This document shows positions 1 to 36,473 of a stretch of DNA of 64,000 bases, piece by piece. The DNA comes from a virus. The stretch spans positions 25,690 to 89,689 of IMG/VR virus record IMGVR_UViG_3300042449_001328. The stretch is one strand, 5' to 3'. Position 1 is the first letter of the stretch; the number at the start of each line of letters is the position of its first letter. The position numbers were made by a program, and so were the translations under genes. The notes beneath the pieces are model-generated. The model searched no databases. It was not told where the DNA came from and saw only the letters and a list, made by a program, of their open reading frames with translations.

Positions 1-964
1 AATATTCTGCTGAAAAGAAAGAGTTATCTTCAATCAAGGGTTTTATCAAATCCCTGCCTGACACATTTATTCTCACTGAATTTTCATCAGTAACTATACT
101 AGTGGTGTCGACCAATCCAATTAAGTCATATACCAATCCTGGCACATCTTGTGCAGACAATTGATTGGCTTGAATCAACTGTGCTTTAGTCTCATTGTTA
201 AGCCTCTCAAATCTGATGTACACTACATCGTTCTGTTGAATGCAGTCTTTGAAGAAAAAAACTGGACGTTTAAATGCTGACTTATCAGGGTCTTTGTCTT
301 CTTTATACTTAGTTACGTGAGAAGTAATCAATATATCTTGATCCACCCCATTGCTAGAATAACTTTTACTTGACTTAGGTTGCCAACCGTTTTCAGGGGT
401 ATATGCTGCTTCAACTGGTAAGAATGAGATATTAAAAGACCCTCCTTGCTTTGTTACGTTTGTGGTACAAGATTCTATAAAAGGCGAAACATCAAGCCAT
501 CCTCCTTCACTCGTTCCTTGTGGCGATGAAGATCTGATCCACATAAAGACACTAAGTTCATTGTTGACCAACTCTACCGTAGTTTCTTTTTTCTTTAGAA
601 CACTTATATAATTAGGGTCTTCGAATAATTGTTGAAGCTGTAATGCTATAAAGGCTTTGTAGTTAGATGTATCAAAAATGTCAGGCTGATCGGTAGTGCC
701 TATAACCTCTCTCATGATCTGATCGTCAGGCACAAGTATATTAGTACCGTGTTTCAGTAAAATATCCTGATACTTACCTGAGTCGTATTTTTCTTGTTGC
801 TCTTTTAGTTCTTGAGCGGTATATCTACGTTTTGCCCTTTGATAATTGGTTATAACAGTATCTCCCTTATAGTCAAGCAAATCTTTGCTTAACAGCAAAG
901 TACGGAAGTTTGTGAGAAACTTTTCTACTGTTTGGTCTTCTAAAGAAGGGATGGTATTGTACAT
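1..964 (-). CDS. Baseplate or tail-hub type structural protein (partial)
   Basis: The reading frame starts with ATG at 962-964 and stays open to base 1, so at least 321 residues are visible and the C-terminus is missing. No domain is certain. The segment near the visible end has a 'VSGRDLIKPLIED' pattern that I associate with tail-hub or baseplate proteins of contractile-tailed phages. It follows the tape-measure-position gene by six bases, which is where baseplate genes normally begin. The baseplate assignment is inference from position and this weak motif. Confidence 0.6.
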   Translation of the reverse strand, partial: MYNTIPSLEDQTVEKFLTNFRTLLLSKDLLDYKGDTVITNYQRAKRRYTAQELKEQQEKYDSGKYQDILLKHGTNILVPDDQIMREVIGTTDQPDIFDTSNYKAFIALQLQQLFEDPNYISVLKKKETTVELVNNELSVFMWIRSSSPQGTSEGGWLDVSPFIESCTTNVTKQGGSFNISFLPVEAAYTPENGWQPKSSKSYSSNGVDQDILITSHVTKYKEDKDPDKSAFKRPVFFFKDCIQQNDVVYIRFERLNNETKAQLIQANQLSAQDVPGLVYDLIGLVDTTSIVTDENSVRINVSGRDLIKPLIEDNSFFSAEY

Positions 965-27789: not shown

Positions 27790-28365
27790 TTATTTTTTTA
27801 TAAACCAGAATGAAACCATACTATCATCTCCATTTTCAAATGTTGTGTGAATATCAGACATAGTATATTTATTGTTACTTTCAGATACAAAACATTTAAC
27901 TGCCTCATTAACGCCATATTGAGGACTTAAATAATCATGCCCTGAAATTACCCCTCCACTCCTTACTTTAGGATATATAGCTTTCAAATCAGCTAAACAC
28001 CCCTTGTAGCTGTGATCTCCATCTAAGTAGGCAAAGATAAGTGAATTGTCAGTTATTAATGGGATAGTGTCACTCGATTTGCCTTGATATATATATCTTT
28101 TGTTTTCAAAAGCGTTTGTTCTATACAATGCTTCTTTTAAATTATCGTCATGCCAGTTTTGTTCAAAGCCTCCGTCTCCTTTTTGATTGAGGGTTTGCCA
28201 AGCGTCAATCATGTAATGTTTGGTAACATTAGGCCAAGAGATAATGTGTTCACTAAATCGTCCTTCAGCTACTCCTATTTCAACAGAGTGACCTACTAGG
28301 TTATTGTGTATTAATAAGTTACAAAACTCTGTTCGGTAATTAAGTTGGTTTGATTTTAAGCCCAT
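27790..28365 (-). CDS. Class I SAM-dependent methyltransferase
   Basis: A 191-residue enzyme. 'SVEIGVAEGRFSEHII' is motif I for SAM binding, and 'LIFAYLDGDHSYKGCLADLK' with 'VRSGGVISGHDYL' are the Methyltransf_24-type motifs that carry a metal-binding Asp and His. Such enzymes methylate hydroxyls on sugars or small molecules. It overlaps the previous methyltransferase by ten bases. Confidence 0.8.
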   Translation of the reverse strand: MGLKSNQLNYRTEFCNLLIHNNLVGHSVEIGVAEGRFSEHIISWPNVTKHYMIDAWQTLNQKGDGGFEQNWHDDNLKEALYRTNAFENKRYIYQGKSSDTIPLITDNSLIFAYLDGDHSYKGCLADLKAIYPKVRSGGVISGHDYLSPQYGVNEAVKCFVSESNNKYTMSDIHTTFENGDDSMVSFWFIKK

Positions 28366-29039
28366 CTTTTCTTTGCAAATAAATATATGTGTTCATATTC
28401 CACGTCATGGGTCTTTTTCAAGAACTCAATAGCGTTCATCAAATTTTGTTTTGCCTTCTCTTTCTCTATTCCCGTGAATGCGTGTGGATGGATTTCTGCT
28501 ACTAGGTAATCTACTCGGTCGGCTATTTCTTCCAATGATTCTTTATGTTCCCATATTGTATTTTCGTTGCCCTCTATGTCGATCTTCATTACCACATTAT
28601 CATCAGGGTAGCAATAATCGGTTAATAATTTATCTGGCATGATAAGCTCTACATTGGACACCTCTGCTCTGGGGTTGTTCTCCATATCTTGCTCATTGAT
28701 ATGATCACTGATCGATAAGTATTCTTCGTTTGATCCATTTGTAGCATCTGTCTTGTGCCAAGTTTTACCTCTTCCTATTGCTTTTCTAATTAAATGGCTT
28801 TTTTCAATTTTAGTATGTTCTAACCATACTTTTTGATTCTCAGGATTAGGTTCTACTGCTATTATCCAAGCATTAGGGAAAAGCTCGTGAGCAAATCTAG
28901 TAAAGCAGCCTACATTTGCCCCAAGGTCGAATATAATATTTGGGGTAAAGTCAAGTTGCCTAAGTCTATAACTATCATTGGTAACAACTTCTGCATACAA
29001 ACCCCTAAATCCTCCGTTTAAACTGTCTTCTAGTTTCAT
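28356..29039 (-). CDS. FkbM-family methyltransferase
   Basis: A 227-residue enzyme with 'IIFDLGANVGCFTRFA' (SAM motif I), 'WIIAVEPNPENQKVW' and 'VVMKIDIEGNENTIWEHKE', the hallmark of FkbM proteins. It is one of several methyltransferases in the cassette and is overlapped at its start by a tiny membrane-protein gene. Confidence 0.85.
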   Translation of the reverse strand: MKLEDSLNGGFRGLYAEVVTNDSYRLRQLDFTPNIIFDLGANVGCFTRFAHELFPNAWIIAVEPNPENQKVWLEHTKIEKSHLIRKAIGRGKTWHKTDATNGSNEEYLSISDHINEQDMENNPRAEVSNVELIMPDKLLTDYCYPDDNVVMKIDIEGNENTIWEHKESLEEIADRVDYLVAEIHPHAFTGIEKEKAKQNLMNAIEFLKKTHDVEYEHIYLFAKKRWA

Positions 29040-29140
29040 TTGTCTTTATTGTTTCTTTTAAAATCAACTACATCTTGCAATATCATAAATACCAAAATTG
29101 CCAACACAATAAAAAATTGAACAGTCAATGTATTTTTCAT
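29036..29140 (-). CDS. Tiny single-pass membrane protein
   Basis: A 34-residue reading frame: ATG at 29138-29140 overlaps the stop of the GT25 gene (ATGA), and its stop overlaps the start of the next methyltransferase in the same way. Residues 8-25 ('QFFIVLAILVFMILQDVV') form one membrane helix. The double ATGA overlap strongly suggests it is translated. It could anchor cassette enzymes to the membrane. Confidence 0.6.
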   Translation of the reverse strand: MKNTLTVQFFIVLAILVFMILQDVVDFKRNNKDK

Positions 29141-29970
29141 AATCTTGCTTCTTTCCAATCAAATTTTTCTGGATCAAAATTTTCCATCCTGTCTTGATAC
29201 CAGTAGGCACTATTTTCTTCCGTACCGTTAAGTTTGCTGAATCGGCTAAATTCAGTTATATGCCCTGAACCTGGAATTTGATCGCTCAAATTATCCATTT
29301 GCTTTACACAACCTGGAACAAATGCAAAAGTATGCAATTTCTGTGAAATATTTATCATTGAATGATCAATGCCAATTGATTGAGGTAAAAATTCGTCCAG
29401 TAAAGATAATACTTTTTGAATCGAATTCCTATTTACAATGTAAGCGTAAGTACAAAAAGATCCGTAAGTACGAATCATTCTAGGATCATCTGTGAGTTCA
29501 GCGTCCCTGCCTAACTGTTCTTCTGGTTTTCTTTTCTCATCCCACCAAGGTTTCCCTATATGAAATGTTGCGCCAAGCCATACTGCATCCCACTTTCTTT
29601 CGATCTCTATTTTTTCTCCTAGATTGCAACATCTCCAATTATCAATATATTCTAATCTTTTTTCTAGGTCACTGCAAAATATTAAATCATCTTCCATTAC
29701 AAAAGCATGTTTATTTTGCTGTAATGCTTGCTTCATGATTTTTTCTTGGCTAAGATAGCAACCAATAGCACCCTTCTGAGGTCTAGCTAGCATAGCTTTC
29801 ATTTGATACGCTTTATAAGGCCACTCTTCTGGAGTCATTCCTTTTACTCTTACTGAATAACTAAATATATCAGGGAATCTATCAAACTGATTAAGCATGT
29901 GTTGCCTACGATCATTTCTATGATCAAGATTTACATAAGCAACTAAACTGTCTTTTATCAATTGCATCAT
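29137..29970 (-). CDS. GT25-family glycosyltransferase
   Basis: A 277-residue enzyme. 'AYVNLDHRNDRRQHM' near the start, 'GAIGCYLSQEKIMKQAL' and 'HAFVMEDDLIF' (acidic residues 93-95) are the ordered motifs of the GT25/LPS glycosyltransferase family. It would transfer a sugar from a nucleotide donor to a glycan or protein acceptor in the cytoplasm. It is in the middle of the cassette with ATGA-type coupling on both sides. Confidence 0.85.
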   Translation of the reverse strand: MMQLIKDSLVAYVNLDHRNDRRQHMLNQFDRFPDIFSYSVRVKGMTPEEWPYKAYQMKAMLARPQKGAIGCYLSQEKIMKQALQQNKHAFVMEDDLIFCSDLEKRLEYIDNWRCCNLGEKIEIERKWDAVWLGATFHIGKPWWDEKRKPEEQLGRDAELTDDPRMIRTYGSFCTYAYIVNRNSIQKVLSLLDEFLPQSIGIDHSMINISQKLHTFAFVPGCVKQMDNLSDQIPGSGHITEFSRFSKLNGTEENSAYWYQDRMENFDPEKFDWKEARL

Positions 29971-31199
29971 ATTGTCTTTTTTATTAATACTTGGTAGTCT
30001 CTTACTAGGATTTCTAGGTTTCCTTTGTTTTTATCTAAGAATTTATCGATGCCTGTTTTTGTTTCTTTGCTCTGACCATAGTCATCGAATAGCATGTATC
30101 CATTTAACCGCAAAACATTGAATGAAAATTCTGCGTCCATAAATACACCCTCCTCAGTGTGGTCGCCATCTACATAAACAAAGTCAAACAAGTATTGTGA
30201 TAAGTAATTATAAGCCTCTGAACTTTTTTTTCTTACAAGCTCTATTGGTTGCCCTTTTGTGTTTTTTATAAAACGCTCATATTGGCCTTTAAACATCTCA
30301 TTATCTTTATGATCTGGCAGATATATATCTGTCAAAGGGTCTACGCAAATGAGCCTACTGCCGTCAACATCTTTGTTCAGCAAACAATCACAAATGTGGT
30401 TTGAACTTAATCCTTCAAAACAACCTATTTCTAAAGCCAGGTGTACTTTACCTTTTAGGAATTCAGTATTTTTCTTAAATTCACTGTTCCAAAGCTGAGT
30501 GTACTCATACCTACCTATCTCTAGGTAACTTATGATGTAATTCTCTGCATGATAATCTTCCACAAACTCCCCTGCTTTTACTTCATTAAAGTATTTACCG
30601 TCCCAACCCCACACCTTGTAACCAAAATCATTTACTAGCTCAATGATTGGTTTGAAAGTAAATCCACCTACTTTATAGTGTTCACTGTATTCGATCTGGA
30701 TGAACTTGACTTGTTTTTCTTTTAAAATTCTTTTAGCACCATCTATGACTAGTTTTTCAGCACCCTCTACATCTATCTTGATTATATCTATTTCAAGTAC
30801 TTCAAAAATATTATCAAGTGTTGAACTATGTATTGTCTTTCTTTTTCTATCCAAAATTTCCTTTTCCCATTTTTTATTATTTAGAATAGAAGACAGACCT
30901 GAATGTTTATTGTCCCAATGATAAAAATCAACTAATTCTTCTTTATCAGAAATAGCATTTGACCTAAATATGATATTGGGATTATAGCTATATTTTACTT
31001 CCTGATAGCTTCTTAACTTATCATTGGGCTCTACTGAAATAACATTATATTTCAACGCTTCAGTGGACGTATCTCTATAATCTATTAAAGCATCAAACCA
31101 TTCGCCTTTATGGCTGCCTACATCAACAATTAGCCAAAATGGATTAAAGTATTGTGTTAAACTGAGTACCATCTCAGCTTCTTGTTTAGCTATTGCCAT
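29967..31199 (-). CDS. Bifunctional methyltransferase: FkbM plus class I domain
   Basis: A 410-residue fusion. Residues 15-200 form an FkbM domain ('WLIVDVGSHKGEWF' and 'DIIKIDVEGAEKLVIDGA'). Residues 235-405 form a second class I methyltransferase with 'HLALEIGCFEGLSSNHI' and 'DFVYVDGDHTEEGV', close to the type at 27790-28365. Two different methyl transfers on one glycan could be coupled in one polypeptide. It overlaps the epimerase gene by ten bases. Confidence 0.8.
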   Translation of the reverse strand: MAIAKQEAEMVLSLTQYFNPFWLIVDVGSHKGEWFDALIDYRDTSTEALKYNVISVEPNDKLRSYQEVKYSYNPNIIFRSNAISDKEELVDFYHWDNKHSGLSSILNNKKWEKEILDRKRKTIHSSTLDNIFEVLEIDIIKIDVEGAEKLVIDGAKRILKEKQVKFIQIEYSEHYKVGGFTFKPIIELVNDFGYKVWGWDGKYFNEVKAGEFVEDYHAENYIISYLEIGRYEYTQLWNSEFKKNTEFLKGKVHLALEIGCFEGLSSNHICDCLLNKDVDGSRLICVDPLTDIYLPDHKDNEMFKGQYERFIKNTKGQPIELVRKKSSEAYNYLSQYLFDFVYVDGDHTEEGVFMDAEFSFNVLRLNGYMLFDDYGQSKETKTGIDKFLDKNKGNLEILVRDYQVLIKKTI

Positions 31200-32167
31200 T
31201 TATTTGCTTGAGATTTAATCCAATCGTAAGTCAACTTAATTCCTTCTTCAAGTGAGTATTTAGGTTTCCATCCTAACTCTTTTTCTATCAACGTGTTATC
31301 TGAGTTTCTGCCTCTAACACCTTGAGGTTTAGTTAAATCATTTGCTATTGAAAGATTTTTGCCGCTTATTTTGATAATAAGTTTAGCTAAATCGTTAATG
31401 GAGATAACTTCATCGCTGCCTATGTTTATAGGTTCAGTAAAATTACTATTCATCAATCTTTCTACTCCCTCTAAGCACTCGCTAATAAAAAGAAAACTTC
31501 TCACTTGAGAACCATCCCCCCATATTTCTATAGCATCCCCATTTTTTGCTTGTGCAACTTTACGTGCAATTGCAGCAGGAGCTTTTTCTTTTCCACCATC
31601 CCAAATCCCTTCATGTCCAAAAATATTATGAAAACGAGCAATTCTAACATCTAAATTATGTGATTGAGTTGCCGCTTTATACATTAATTCACTCATTAAC
31701 TTCTGCCACCCATAGATCAAGTCAGGCATTGCAGGGAACACATCGGATTCTTTTAAAGAAATGTTTTGCACCCCTTCTTGTAAATACATATTGTACACAC
31801 AAGCGGAACTGCTATAAAATGATTTCTTTACTTTATGGGCAATACTGCAATCAATTACATTAGCAACAATCTGTGTTGATCCAGTCATAATATCATGACT
31901 GTGTTTAGTGTCACCTATATAACCCATTCCGCCCATCAAACAAGCTAGGTTGTAAACTTCATCTATCCCATTTTTTAAATGAAATGAATTAAACACTTCC
32001 CTACACTGTAGTTGGTTTCTCAAATCCCTATTGAAGAATAAATGAGGCTTTTCGTATTTAGGTTCAACTATATCAACGCCAACAACAAAGTGGCCTTGTT
32101 GCTTTAATTTCCTGACTAAGTGGCTGCCAATGAATCCAGAAGATCCTGTGACAATAATATTTTTCAT
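31190..32167 (-). CDS. NDP-sugar epimerase, GDP-mannose 3,5-epimerase-like
   Basis: A 325-residue extended SDR enzyme. 'NIIVTGSSGFIGSHLVRKL' is the NAD-binding motif. 'YNLACLMGGMGYIG', 'SSACVYN' and 'YGWQK' (Tyr152, Lys156) followed by 'IWGDGSQVRSFLFI' and 'GVRGRNSDN' closely follow the pattern of GDP-mannose 3,5-epimerases. That enzyme makes GDP-L-galactose from GDP-mannose. A GDP-fucose synthase is the main alternative. The product would feed the two GT11 enzymes. Confidence 0.8.
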   Translation of the reverse strand: MKNIIVTGSSGFIGSHLVRKLKQQGHFVVGVDIVEPKYEKPHLFFNRDLRNQLQCREVFNSFHLKNGIDEVYNLACLMGGMGYIGDTKHSHDIMTGSTQIVANVIDCSIAHKVKKSFYSSSACVYNMYLQEGVQNISLKESDVFPAMPDLIYGWQKLMSELMYKAATQSHNLDVRIARFHNIFGHEGIWDGGKEKAPAAIARKVAQAKNGDAIEIWGDGSQVRSFLFISECLEGVERLMNSNFTEPINIGSDEVISINDLAKLIIKISGKNLSIANDLTKPQGVRGRNSDNTLIEKELGWKPKYSLEEGIKLTYDWIKSQANKWQ

Positions 32168-32187
32168 ATCTGAACTTTTAATATTCG

Positions 32188-32928
32188 TTAAATTCTAATC
32201 CACTCTTTAGGGACAATCTCTTCCGTCCATTCATTACTGTGCGATTCTGTCAACCATCGTTTCGGCACTATCACTTTTTTATTTGGGTTTTGATTTAACC
32301 AAGCTCCCCACCACGAGAATGTACTGGCACTGTTTATGTGATGCTCGCATTGGCTAATTTGCTGTAAGTCCGTTAACTCATTTTGCCTTACTGAAAAAGA
32401 GCAATCTTTTCTTCCTCCAAACTCTCTTTGACACCATTCTATGTCGTCACTAAAGAAGTAAAATTCTTTTCCTTTAAATAAATCCATTGCATTTTCATAC
32501 CACTCTTTGGTGACTAGGGGATGTTTGTGTTGTAAAGTCAAATAATCGCCCCTCCTTACGTGAACTGATACAGTATCTTCTTGATGTTTGTTGTATTGAA
32601 ATCCCAGTGTTTCAATTATTTCTTTCCTGTAATCTTGGAAGTATTTTGGGTTCTGGAAGTAGCCTCTCAATAAGATATTTTGACTTCTATATGATTGATC
32701 AAATGGTAACTTGTCGTATCTGTAATATTGCTGTTCAACGATTATTCGATCTATATCACTAAAGTTTGTTGTAGGCAATCCTCCCATACTGTAAATTGGA
32801 TCGTGATATTGATCATTTGTTACTCCAGGCAGATATACTGAAAAACCATGTTCTAATCCGTAAGCTATTGCTGTGGCTACACAAAACAACCAGTTTCCCA
32901 ATCTGCCTTGCGGCTTAAATGTTACCAT
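32188..32928 (-). CDS. GT11 alpha-1,2-fucosyltransferase-like enzyme
   Basis: A 246-residue enzyme with the GT11 signatures 'GRLGNWLFCVATAIAYGL', 'SVHVRRGDYL' (donor binding, Arg125/126) and 'STFSWWGAWLN'. GT11 enzymes transfer L-fucose, or in some cases L-galactose, from a GDP sugar. It follows the epimerase gene in position and is one of two GT11 genes here. Confidence 0.85.
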   Translation of the reverse strand: MVTFKPQGRLGNWLFCVATAIAYGLEHGFSVYLPGVTNDQYHDPIYSMGGLPTTNFSDIDRIIVEQQYYRYDKLPFDQSYRSQNILLRGYFQNPKYFQDYRKEIIETLGFQYNKHQEDTVSVHVRRGDYLTLQHKHPLVTKEWYENAMDLFKGKEFYFFSDDIEWCQREFGGRKDCSFSVRQNELTDLQQISQCEHHINSASTFSWWGAWLNQNPNKKVIVPKRWLTESHSNEWTEEIVPKEWIRI

Positions 32929-33155
32929 TACAATTCTACGTTAAATACTTTAAGATTTGTAAATTGTCCGCCAGAAGCTACCCAATATCCTTGTACCATA
33001 ATTGGGGTTGACCAATTGTTGATTATAGTATTTGTTAACAAGGTGTATTCCTTCCACTCAGGTATCAATTTGCTGATCTTTTCAATAAACTCTCCAAGAT
33101 TAACTTCTCCTTCTATCTTGATTGTTTTAGCTGTGTCGTTAATTTGTAGTTTCAC
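32928..33155 (-). CDS. Small protein of unknown function
   Basis: A 75-residue beta-rich protein overlapping the start of the GT11 gene by one base. I recognise no family. 'IKIEGEVNLGEFIEKISKLI' followed by strands could be a small ferredoxin-like fold. Confidence 0.5.
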   Translation of the reverse strand: MKLQINDTAKTIKIEGEVNLGEFIEKISKLIPEWKEYTLLTNTIINNWSTPIMVQGYWVASGGQFTNLKVFNVEL

Positions 33156-33158
33156 GTC

Positions 33159-33857
33159 TTATTTCATTTCTCTAATTTTGCCCATCAATACTTCAAATAA
33201 ATTACCTGTCTTATGTACATTGTTCTTATAGTGAGACCCTGAATGAACAAGGTGGTCATATCTCATGTTTGGCACAACGTATATTGAATTTCCTGCTTTT
33301 AGCCAATTATAATTTTGGAGTATCGTATCACTGGTATGAGGATCAATTGATCCATCCCACACGCGCAAATATTCGTCACGGTTGACAAAATAGTTCATGG
33401 CATTGATCATCCACAAGAAAGGTTTTATATCAGTGTAATTGGCCACGTTGTATTTTGAAATCACTTGACCTGACATTTGCCTGAAATCAAACAATGGTCT
33501 AGCAAATTCAGGTTGTAAGATTACTGATTTGTCCCATACTGGAGTCCTGTATATTGCATCTAAGTAATCAGTACCTATTTTATTGTCACTGTCCAAAATA
33601 ATTACCCATTTGTTTTCTGCTTTTGAAATTGCTTCTCTCTTGTTCTTGTAGCAATCTAGGTTTTTATCGTTGCGATATAACTTGATCTTGTTTAGGTTTA
33701 TAGCTTCCAACTTAGCTTGTAAGCTGTAAAAATTTTCTAAAGCACTGTGGTCATCAACTATTACTATTTCTGAAATCCTTTCATCGTACATTACGTCTTC
33801 AATGGCATTTATAACCATATCGGTACGATTCCATACAGTTAGGCAAAGTGAAATCAT
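33159..33857 (-). CDS. GT2-family glycosyltransferase
   Basis: A 232-residue enzyme with a GT-A fold. 'MISLCLTVWNRTDMVINAI' and 'IVIVDDHSALENF' are the nucleotide-binding strands, and 'WVIILDSDNKIGTDYL' holds the DxD metal site. It lacks membrane segments. It is coupled by ATGA overlap with the receiver-like gene upstream. Confidence 0.85.
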   Translation of the reverse strand: MISLCLTVWNRTDMVINAIEDVMYDERISEIVIVDDHSALENFYSLQAKLEAINLNKIKLYRNDKNLDCYKNKREAISKAENKWVIILDSDNKIGTDYLDAIYRTPVWDKSVILQPEFARPLFDFRQMSGQVISKYNVANYTDIKPFLWMINAMNYFVNRDEYLRVWDGSIDPHTSDTILQNYNWLKAGNSIYVVPNMRYDHLVHSGSHYKNNVHKTGNLFEVLMGKIREMK

Positions 33858-34255
33858 TTCTTAAATAGATTAACAATATTTTCTGTTCCTACTGGATTCA
33901 TAGAATGTACAAATAACACAGGGTATTCCAGCTTTTCTTGGTCATAAACTTGTTTAAAGTATTTAGCAGCATGAAAACCTGTTTTATTAAAATCATCAGA
34001 ATTGAAGTCTTCTGAGTTGTAATTAATTACTCCTTTCTGCATATTTTTATGATAGTGTCCATCTGCTAAGTCATGATCAAAAGATATATGAGTTATTTTA
34101 CCTTTGAACTTATCAATCACTTTAACAAATTCTGGATAGTTTCTTACTACATTCCAATCATAATCAAGGTAAGTATAAGTAAGTTTTCCTATTCTTTTTC
34201 CCATATATTCAATACAATCAGTAGGAATGCGTATATCATCTAAGAAAATTTTCAT
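33854..34255 (-). CDS. Cyclic-phosphate-processing receiver-like domain protein
   Basis: A 133-residue protein. 'MKIFLDDIRIPTDCIEY' at the start, 'THISFDHDLADGHYHKN' in the middle and 'VLFVHSMNPVGTENIVNLF' at the end match the small receiver-like family annotated as cyclic-phosphate processing (cPP-Rec). These proteins are thought to act on cyclic phosphates or RNA ends. Here the gene is tightly placed between a GT11 and a GT2 gene, so a role on sugar cyclic phosphates or in regulation is possible. Confidence 0.75.
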   Translation of the reverse strand: MKIFLDDIRIPTDCIEYMGKRIGKLTYTYLDYDWNVVRNYPEFVKVIDKFKGKITHISFDHDLADGHYHKNMQKGVINYNSEDFNSDDFNKTGFHAAKYFKQVYDQEKLEYPVLFVHSMNPVGTENIVNLFKK

Positions 34256-35019
34256 ATATCTATTTGTATCCAGTTATCTTCAACTATATCTTCTGCTGTC
34301 AAATGTTCTTTATATTTGTCACTGAACCAAGTGTGCTTACTGGGGCATATTACTGTACCTCCGTATCTTGAATGTGTGTTAAGGTCTAGGTAAGCACCCC
34401 ACCAACTAAAAGTGCTGTTAGTTATGATGTGGTGAATACACGAAGTCATTTCTGTTAACGCTGATTTGGGGTCTTGTTTGTCACTTATTGTAAACCTATC
34501 TCCTTTGAAGTTTTCTTTTGCCCAAACAATATCGTCTGTAAAAATCAATACTTTATATCTATCTGGGAAATGCTCAATAGCATCATGAAAATACTTTAAT
34601 GAAGGTTGATTTAATCTCTCATTGGAAAGTGAATCGCCACGCCTAATGTGCATTGATATTGTCTCATTCAATCTTTGTTCGTACTTAGGTAGTTGAAATG
34701 CTTCAATTACTTTAACCAGATAATCTTCAAAATATTTTGAAGACTGAAAGTATCCAACTAGGTAATTTGCAGATTGAGGTATCTCAAAATACCTGCCAAA
34801 TTTTTCTTCTCTATAAAAGCCGTTTATTGGCAAAGGGTATTCATGCAAGGTAGATAAGTGAGGGAACATCATTGGGAATTGATCTCTCTTACCACTTCTT
34901 TGAGGAAACACATATTGCTTTTTATGTCTCAACGAATGAGCTATCACTGCTGCGATCTGGAACATTTGGTTGCCCATTTGCCCCATCAACTTGCAGTAAA
35001 TCGTGTTTTCTTTAATCAC
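34252..35019 (-). CDS. GT11 alpha-1,2-fucosyltransferase-like enzyme, second copy
   Basis: A 255-residue enzyme starting with GTG at 35017-35019, directly after a promoter-like motif. 'GQMGNQMFQIAAVIAHSL', 'ISMHIRRGDS' and 'STFSWWGAYL' are the GT11 motifs. It is clearly divergent from the other GT11 gene, so the two probably act on different acceptors. It is the first gene of the cassette. Confidence 0.85.
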   Translation of the reverse strand: MIKENTIYCKLMGQMGNQMFQIAAVIAHSLRHKKQYVFPQRSGKRDQFPMMFPHLSTLHEYPLPINGFYREEKFGRYFEIPQSANYLVGYFQSSKYFEDYLVKVIEAFQLPKYEQRLNETISMHIRRGDSLSNERLNQPSLKYFHDAIEHFPDRYKVLIFTDDIVWAKENFKGDRFTISDKQDPKSALTEMTSCIHHIITNSTFSWWGAYLDLNTHSRYGGTVICPSKHTWFSDKYKEHLTAEDIVEDNWIQIDI

Positions 35020-35062: not shown

Positions 35063-35189
35063 TTGTTGACCAGATAGGAGTCGAACCTATAATGAGGCGG
35101 TTGTTAGGCAATAAGCCGAGCAGTGCTATTTTAAAACGCTTACTCTATTACTAACTTACCACTGTGTTTGCCAGTTTCACCACTAGTCA
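35063..35189 (-). tRNA. tRNA-like element with an extended anticodon arm
   Basis: On the minus strand TGACTAG pairs with CTGGTCA as an acceptor stem (one G-U pair) with discriminator A. The D-arm (GTG-CAC, loop with TGG) looks like that of tRNA-Leu, and the T-arm ATAGG-TTCGACT-CCTAT is perfect. The anticodon stem would be GTGGT/ACCGC, but 56 bases lie between its strands instead of 7. These form a longer hairpin (GTTAG/CTAAC, then AGTAAGC/GCTTATT). No loop with U33 can be restored by simple removal. It may be an interrupted tRNA, a tRNA mimic or a decayed gene. It lies seven bases after the tmRNA. Confidence 0.5.
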
Positions 35190-35196
35190 ATTTTTG

Positions 35197-35611
35197 TGGA
35201 CCTGAGCGGATTCGAACCGCTGTCCAGATAGCATACAATACCACGATTACTTACAGCTTGTTTGGTTTAAGTCCAACAACTCACTTTTAGGGCTACCAGC
35301 AGTTTTTCAACTACCTACAACCTCCACCATTCGATTGCCATTACTTCTTTTGTGTCATATCGAAAATCCCCTTTGTTTTACTCATTAAGCAGCAAGCTCT
35401 AATTCTTGCTCTGCTTCAACTCTATTAAAGTTAAAGGCTGAGAAATCAAAACCTACTTTTGCATCTTGACGATTGCCAATAGTACCACCTAGGATACTGT
35501 TAGCGATTAATTGATTGTCAATTGTTTGTGTATGCATATTTTCAGTAGGTACAGCATACTTCCCTACGCTGATTGTGTTACCAATTACTACTGTCAATTC
35601 CTGTCAGGCCC
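35197..35611 (-). ncRNA. ssrA: tmRNA (transfer-messenger RNA)
   Basis: A one-piece tmRNA of about 415 bases. The 5' end GGGCCTG pairs with CAGGTCC at the 3' end (one G-U), followed by discriminator A. The 5' D-like part reads ACAGGAATTGACAG, and the 3' part has GGAC followed by the T-arm AGCGG-TTCGAAT-CCGCT. A tag frame ends ...AEQELELAA with a TAA TGA double stop at about 35382-35387. The exact resume codon (GAA or GCA after TAGAGTT) is uncertain. Downstream, TTGG[ACTTA]AACCAA...[TAAGT] forms an H-type pseudoknot at 35244-35277, as in tmRNAs. It would rescue stalled ribosomes and mark proteins with an LAA tail. Confidence 0.9.
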
Positions 35612-35693: not shown

Positions 35694-36317
35694 TTAACTA
35701 TTTATTTTTACACTGTTTGCTCTATTCAGCCAGCCTTCCAAAAACCTTGATTGAGTACTGTCTTTCTTGACCAATTGTTGATAGAATTCATATCTGTCTT
35801 TTTTTAACCTATCTAACAATGTTTTGCTAGGGATTTTGTTTATTGTCTCAATATCCTCAACTGTTATCTTATTGTCCAATTTAAGCCCCTTCAATTCAAA
35901 CAATGCTTTCTCCAACATCTTGACAAATAATGTTGGTCCGTTGACCCTAAAGTCAAAAAGATAATCTGCTACTTGTTGATTGTCTAGTTCATACCACCCT
36001 TCTTTCACCCAAATGTCAAGATAATAATCAAGTACCCAAAATTCAGCCTCTGGAACTAGGTCATGCCTTTCTCTTTTGCTTTTGTCTATGTGTCTCCAGC
36101 CGTACCAATCTTTGTTCCATTTCTTTGTTATGCCAGCATAGGTCTCACCCCCTCTATCAAGTGGGTCGTTTACGTAGTTGCCTTCATAAGACCTTATGTA
36201 AGAGTATGTCAATCTAAAATCTGCCTTATATCTCTTTAATTCATTTTTTGAAACTAAAACATTGTTTGCTTTAATAGCGACTATTAAAAACAGTATAGTT
36301 AGTATTAGTTTTTTCAT
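35694..36317 (-). CDS. GH108-like lysozyme (N-acetylmuramidase) with signal segment
   Basis: A 207-residue enzyme. Residues 1-22 ('MKKLILTILFLIVAIKANNV') form a signal peptide or signal-arrest-release segment. 'RSYEGNYVNDPLDRGGETYA' (Glu45 as the likely catalytic acid) is the glycoside hydrolase 108 motif, and 'VADYLFDFRVNGPTLFVKML' is the conserved C-terminal helix. It cleaves the glycan strands of peptidoglycan. An export signal suggests holin-independent export followed by activation. It lies between tRNA-Thr and tmRNA, far from the M15 endolysin gene. Confidence 0.85.
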   Translation of the reverse strand: MKKLILTILFLIVAIKANNVLVSKNELKRYKADFRLTYSYIRSYEGNYVNDPLDRGGETYAGITKKWNKDWYGWRHIDKSKRERHDLVPEAEFWVLDYYLDIWVKEGWYELDNQQVADYLFDFRVNGPTLFVKMLEKALFELKGLKLDNKITVEDIETINKIPSKTLLDRLKKDRYEFYQQLVKKDSTQSRFLEGWLNRANSVKINS

Positions 36318-36330
36318 TTAATGTTTTTAG

Positions 36331-36403
36331 ATCCGATGGACGGGTTCGAACCGACAACCTTCTGCTTACAAGGCAGTAGCTCTTCCACATGAGCTTCATC
36401 GGA
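36331..36403 (-). tRNA. tRNA-Thr (UGU)
   Basis: A complete cloverleaf on the minus strand: acceptor TCCGATG/CATCGGA with discriminator T, D-arm GCTC-ATGTGGAA-GAGC, anticodon arm with core stem CTGC/GCAG and loop CTTGTAA (anticodon TGT, read as Thr), and T-arm GTCGG-TTCGAAC-CCGTC with one mismatch. CCA is not encoded. It lies between the terminator and the lysozyme gene. Confidence 0.9.
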
Positions 36404-36410
36404 TTGTGGC

Positions 36411-36447
36411 TAAAAAATAAGAGGCTTAAACTTTCGTTTAAACCTCT
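36411..36447 (-). terminator. Intrinsic terminator after the small-gene operon
   Basis: On the minus strand AGAGGTTTAAAC-GAAA-GTTTAAGCCTCT forms a 12-position stem (one mismatch) with a GAAA tetraloop, followed by TATTTTTTA. It ends the operon transcribed from the region near 38000 and lies eight bases before tRNA-Thr. Confidence 0.85.
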
Positions 36448-36473
36448 CAAAACACAACACACATTTGTCTTGC

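Follow-up and report, generated by a model that had tools for sequence, protein, structure and literature searches.

Does the tmRNA (ssrA) gene of this Bacteroidota phage encode an ordinary short tag, or is the reading frame that runs unusually far upstream of its tag part of the tag itself? The locus lies in a 64,000-nt stretch (the window) of an 89,689-base virus record. A first-pass annotation had described a phage tmRNA with matching ends, a T-arm, an H-type pseudoknot and a tag ending in ELELAA followed by a double stop, and had remarked that the tag frame was oddly open almost to the 5′ end. Tail sheath, major head protein, portal, large terminase and helicase genes of the window match PHROG families, showing that it belongs to a tailed phage. 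Because its major head protein is 54% identical to that of Chryseobacterium phage MA9V-3, and the best terminase matches include several phages of Flavobacteriia, a Bacteroidota host is likely.

The tmRNA gene and its reading frame

The absence of a covariance hit, or of pairing between the two ends, had been named in advance as grounds for rejecting the tmRNA. Neither was the case. ARAGORN called a tmRNA on the minus strand, and Rfam RF00023 matched 35194-35611(-) over the full model (1-374) with 48.5 bits, against a gathering score of 47, and an E-value of 4.2e-16. It is the only tmRNA in the whole record, and every feature named in the first-pass annotation is present (Table 1), so that its observation is confirmed. 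The permuted (two-piece) model RF04321 gave only an overlapping hit of 26 bits against its threshold of 47, and thus did not match. The RF00023 score is nevertheless barely above the cut-off and well below that of host tmRNAs (mostly 112-164 bits). The first pseudoknot, PK1, was reached by 0 of 300 shuffled sequences in a tight search and by 5 of 200 in a looser one. By contrast, a simple scan for pseudoknots downstream of the tag did not exceed chance (179 of 200 shuffles), an outcome that leaves the presence of PK2-PK4 undecided.

Table 1. Features of the tmRNA locus and its surroundings in window coordinates
Feature	Position	Strand	Basis
tmRNA (ssrA) gene, one-piece standard form	35196-35611	-	ARAGORN; RF00023
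5′ acceptor strand GGGCCTG, pairing with CAGGTCC; G3:U70 alanine identity pair	35605-35611	-	Sequence; RF00023 alignment
PK1, H-type pseudoknot; S1 GTAGG/CCTAC, S2 GTATGC/GCATAC	35530-35567	-	11 of 11 Watson-Crick pairs; shuffles
Inferred resume codon GAC, preceded by CAAACAAUU; 10 nt after PK1	35517-35519	-	Aligned to model GCa in RF00023 alignment; equivalent site in relatives
44-codon tag reading frame, DNQLIANSILGGTIGNRQDAKVGFDFSAFNFNRVEAEQELELAA	35388-35519	-	Open frame; coding score of first 34 codons
Double stop TAA TGA	35382-35387	-	Sequence; ARAGORN
T-arm AGCGG-TTCGAAT-CCGCT	35205-35221	-	Sequence; RF00023 alignment
3′ acceptor strand CAGGTCC; discriminator A at 35197; CCA not encoded (ACAA follows)	35198-35204	-	Sequence
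tRNA-like element directly downstream of the tmRNA	35065-35189	-	ARAGORN with introns allowed
Cluster of glycosyltransferases (GT11, GT2), an epimerase and FkbM-type methyltransferases directly downstream of the tmRNA	27790-35019	-	
GH108-type endolysin gene	35694-36317		
tRNA-Thr (tgt) upstream of the tmRNA, next to the endolysin gene	36330-36403	-	
Terminator-like hairpin	36412-36472		Rfam BjrC68, below its cut-off

The tag called by ARAGORN, EAEQELELAA, starts at GAA (35417) and has 10 residues. In the RF00023 alignment, however, the resume codon of the model falls on GAC, which lies at the canonical distance after PK1, is in frame with ELELAA and gives a tag of 44 aa. The ELELAA ending is therefore right, but the 10-residue tag is probably a truncation, and the odd open frame, which extends for 70 codons up to 35597, is most likely the tag itself. 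To test whether the 34 codons between GAC and GAA resemble coding sequence, we scored them in the codon model of the phage. They scored 0.27, compared with 0.175 ± 0.08 for window genes and −0.03 ± 0.09 for shuffles, a level reached by about 1 in 3000 shuffles, whereas the other two frames scored −0.24 and −0.51. Openness by itself is weak evidence, since the 34 codons would be open by chance with a probability of 0.069. A single-sequence structure prediction of the tag was uninformative (pLDDT 61).

The standard ARAGORN run missed the tRNA-like element downstream of the tmRNA. With introns allowed, it is read as tRNA-Val(aac) with a 51-nt insertion in the anticodon loop, and whether it represents a degenerate tRNA or an intron-like insertion is undecided. 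The BjrC68 hit looks like an ordinary hairpin with a U-run.

Long tags in related phages and short tags in hosts

To determine whether other phages carry similar frames, we first searched for relatives of the tmRNA. A degenerate pattern for AEQELELAA plus stop found one contig with an identical tmRNA (L002, 0 mismatches) and two divergent tmRNAs, and a gapped tmRNA pattern added five more. All show a long in-frame sequence from the canonical resume site to the end. A 70-aa query from the window found only the near-identical contig, a nucleotide search of phage records with the window region found only tRNA matches, and tblastn of the window tag and of the NEVG-type tag against phage records gave no match. 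Because the only relative of the window's own tag is identical, no substitution test could be made on it directly; for this tag a coding score is the sole indication, and whether its extension is conserved as protein is left undecided.

Two families of tag became visible, one with ANMxVVHNILNG and one with ITNEVGGIADVLAVV. Searching IMG/VR with these peptides gave 39 and 7 loci, respectively, that is, 46 viral loci with the same layout. ARAGORN called a tmRNA at the motif in 20 of the 39 and in four of the 7, and Rfam added others, some below its cut-off. Most of the loci tested lie in ARAGORN or Rfam tmRNAs, but a few (for example L033, L028, L029 and L052) reached no Rfam threshold in the runs made, and not every locus was examined. 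We obtained 36 distinct tags of 30-50 aa (median 39), which begin at a conserved resume site, mostly UAAA[UC] followed by G[GA]N, with little open frame upstream of it in most. With its 44 codons, the window frame falls within the extended-tag group that we define here by a frame of 30 or more codons from the canonical resume site to the -AA end. In viral contigs L028 and L045, arrays of 18-24 tRNA genes start right after the long-tag tmRNA frame, and L052 carries a hatchet ribozyme (161-311, plus strand; 75.1 bits) about 5.7 kb away from such a frame.

Long tags also occur in cultured phages. In a tblastn search of one tag against phage records, the best hit (E 0.05) fell in Cellulophaga phage phi14:2, inside a tmRNA not annotated there, whose predicted tag is GNDTDNTQLKANMTVVHNILNGSDALIGSSVQKLAMVA, with the stretch ANMTVVHNILNG. 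This phage is crAss-like; only phi14:2 carries that taxonomy here, and whether most of the viral contigs are crAss-like was not examined. Cultured Cellulophaga phage Calle_1, reached separately and reported with one tmRNA (PMC8776804), has a homologous 30-aa frame, GNNTNAVNAQIEANMEAVNAILNLEVAVGV, from the same resume site.

We next asked whether the tags are constrained as protein. In 27 distinct core sequences, pN/pS is 0.29 in the tag frame and 2.15 and 1.79 in the other two frames. The core value is biased because loci were chosen by an amino-acid motif, but outside the motif the ratio is 0.54, with third-position changes most frequent. The tags also share N- and C-terminal pieces in different combinations, as if recombined. 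AlphaFold of the tag family led by phi14:2 predicted a helix over residues 3-24 (pLDDT 74-85 in the first 20 residues, 67 overall), that is, at moderate confidence. PHROGs gave no family for five tags, a PDB profile search gave only insignificant GFP-like matches, and a search for the motif ANM[QT]VVHN in 84,980 bacterial and archaeal genomes gave 2 pattern matches, neither confirmed as a relative.

In the lineage of the window phage itself, we examined 26 related records (25 by major head protein, one by the endolysin-like protein). Six had an RF00023 match at E ≤ 0.01, four of them over the cut-off. Records L090 and L092/L093 carry tags of 26 aa, DNKI[QN]RMIDEVLVINFAQRV..AA, and L091 one of about 24 aa. 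Permuted-form tmRNAs were found in MA9V-3 (L014; 22766-23124, minus strand), with a 17-aa tag, and in record G012; RF04321 scored 64.7 bits in MA9V-3 and 63 in a related viral contig (L217), although the permuted form is described mainly from alphaproteobacterial, betaproteobacterial and cyanobacterial lineages.

A comparison with host ssrA had been suggested at the outset, and we carried it out on genomes of the class of Flavobacterium croceum (Bacteroidia). Of 149 genomes, 138 had a tmRNA over the cut-off, and 110 of these were retrieved. ARAGORN read 102, and its 8 misses and 5 odd calls were re-read from the sequence by looking for the [YF]x[LMV]AA stop frame. Every one of the 110 has a tag of 8-10 aa, such as GENNYALAA, counting the re-read ones from the usual G/D start, and none has an acidic residue at −4. 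A tmRNA annotation in a Stenotrophomonas phage overlaps tRNA genes and was not used as a control.

Interpretation of the proposed extended tag

We consider it likely that the phage encodes a tmRNA that would be charged with alanine, use host SmpB and enter host ribosomes stalled on broken mRNAs. Translation would then resume at GAC and add a 44-residue tag ending in ELELAA before the double stop. Rescue by tmRNA with SmpB is established, and the C-terminal -AA resembles ClpXP degrons, consistent with delivery to a host ClpXP-like protease. Host factors would be needed, since no SmpB or ClpP was found in 20 phage records. There was no AAA_2 match in the window's own record; the MA9V-3 gene annotated as ClpX (L014, 26938-27777, minus strand) encodes a 279-aa AAA protein (PF00004, PF07724). 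In this view the tag is an extended version of a host-like tag, starting with D/G plus N/K, much as host tags start with G or D, and carrying between its two ends a phage-specific module of 20-40 residues, under protein-level constraint in relatives and predicted as a helix in the largest family. The module most likely binds a partner or changes how tagged proteins are handled, so that in infected cells rescue products would carry the phage's tag rather than the host's. We thus propose a two-part tag, a conserved module plus a degron-like -AA end; what the module does is unknown. The sequence data establish the tmRNA, the open frame, its coding signature and the conservation in relatives, whereas the resume codon, the use of SmpB, proteolysis and any function of the module are inferences; charging, SmpB binding, tagging, expression and degradation were not measured. 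The first-pass interpretation is thus partly supported: a phage-encoded tmRNA whose tag differs from host tags is right, the short tag is most likely only the end of a longer one, and the suggestion that the phage redirects tagging or protects its ribosome supply while host rescue declines was not put to a test.

An ordinary tmRNA with the 10-aa tag and an upstream region open by chance is the main alternative. It agrees with the ARAGORN call and with the probability of chance openness, and an A at −4 before GAA also fits a resume site. However, PK1 would then end about 112 nt upstream, no pseudoknot above chance lies just before GAA (104 of 200 shuffles do as well), the upstream codons score as coding, and the 36 distinct tags in relatives show the same long frame with protein conservation, so that we regard this reading as unlikely. 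It is still less likely that the long frame is a separate small protein gene overlapping the tmRNA. In-frame TTG and ATG codons do occur upstream in the window, and the largest tag family has a conserved Met (ANM), but the NEVG family and the window tag lack this Met, and in most relatives the frame begins only a few codons before the resume site, often with no start codon upstream of it. Moreover, the frame ends in the ssrA-like -AA and sits exactly between PK1 and the 3′ domain.

The low RF00023 score, the lack of evident downstream pseudoknots and the absence of an encoded CCA could also point to a decaying, non-functional tmRNA acquired from a host and kept passively. This is improbable too, because acceptor, T-arm, PK1, frame and double stop are all intact, tags in relatives are under purifying selection, the layout recurs in several phage groups, and no host tag resembles it. 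A more far-reaching possibility, which we hold only tentatively and consider less likely than not, is that phages of Bacteroidota have turned tmRNA into a delivery device for a viral peptide. The conserved module would then be a functional domain, binding for example a host chaperone, an adaptor or a phage factor, and every rescue event by the phage tmRNA in an infected cell would make a protein fused to it.

Relation to other tmRNAs and significance

Compared with the standard one-piece tmRNA of Bacteroidia hosts, the phage RNA shares the acceptor with G3:U70, the T-arm, PK1, a resume codon after an A/U-rich spacer and a tag that starts with G/D and ends in -AA before a stop, but differs in the length of its tag, the acidic residue at −4, the weak model score and the lack of evident downstream pseudoknots. 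Phage-borne tmRNAs are already known: 79 unique phage sequences (PMC11915505), 402 phages and OM43 phage Melnitz (PMC9004378), Cellulophaga phage Calle (PMC8776804) and MA9V-3 (PMC13120357). The roles proposed for them are upkeep of the hijacked machinery or tagging of host proteins for recycling (PMC9004378). We found no description of long conserved tags in these accounts, although one elsewhere cannot be excluded because only open-licence papers were searched. The tmRNA-like RNA of mycobacteriophage DS6A, which inhibits host tmRNA in E. coli (cited in PMC11915505), is likewise a phage variant that alters host trans-translation, but shows the opposite change, as it lacks the tag frame. Some bacteria, such as mycoplasmas, also have tags longer than the usual 10 aa (about 26-27 aa), which are shorter than the tag proposed here, cellular and without known shared sequence; they were not included in our comparisons.

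Phage tmRNAs have mostly been treated as spare copies of a host quality-control RNA. A standard gene finder probably truncates tags such as this one, so existing catalogues may hide more of them, and the mass signature of the long tag offers a direct test of what phage tmRNAs are for. A tag four to five times longer than the host's, conserved as protein in relatives and found in several phage groups, including cultured isolates, suggests that phages rewrite what happens to rescued proteins.
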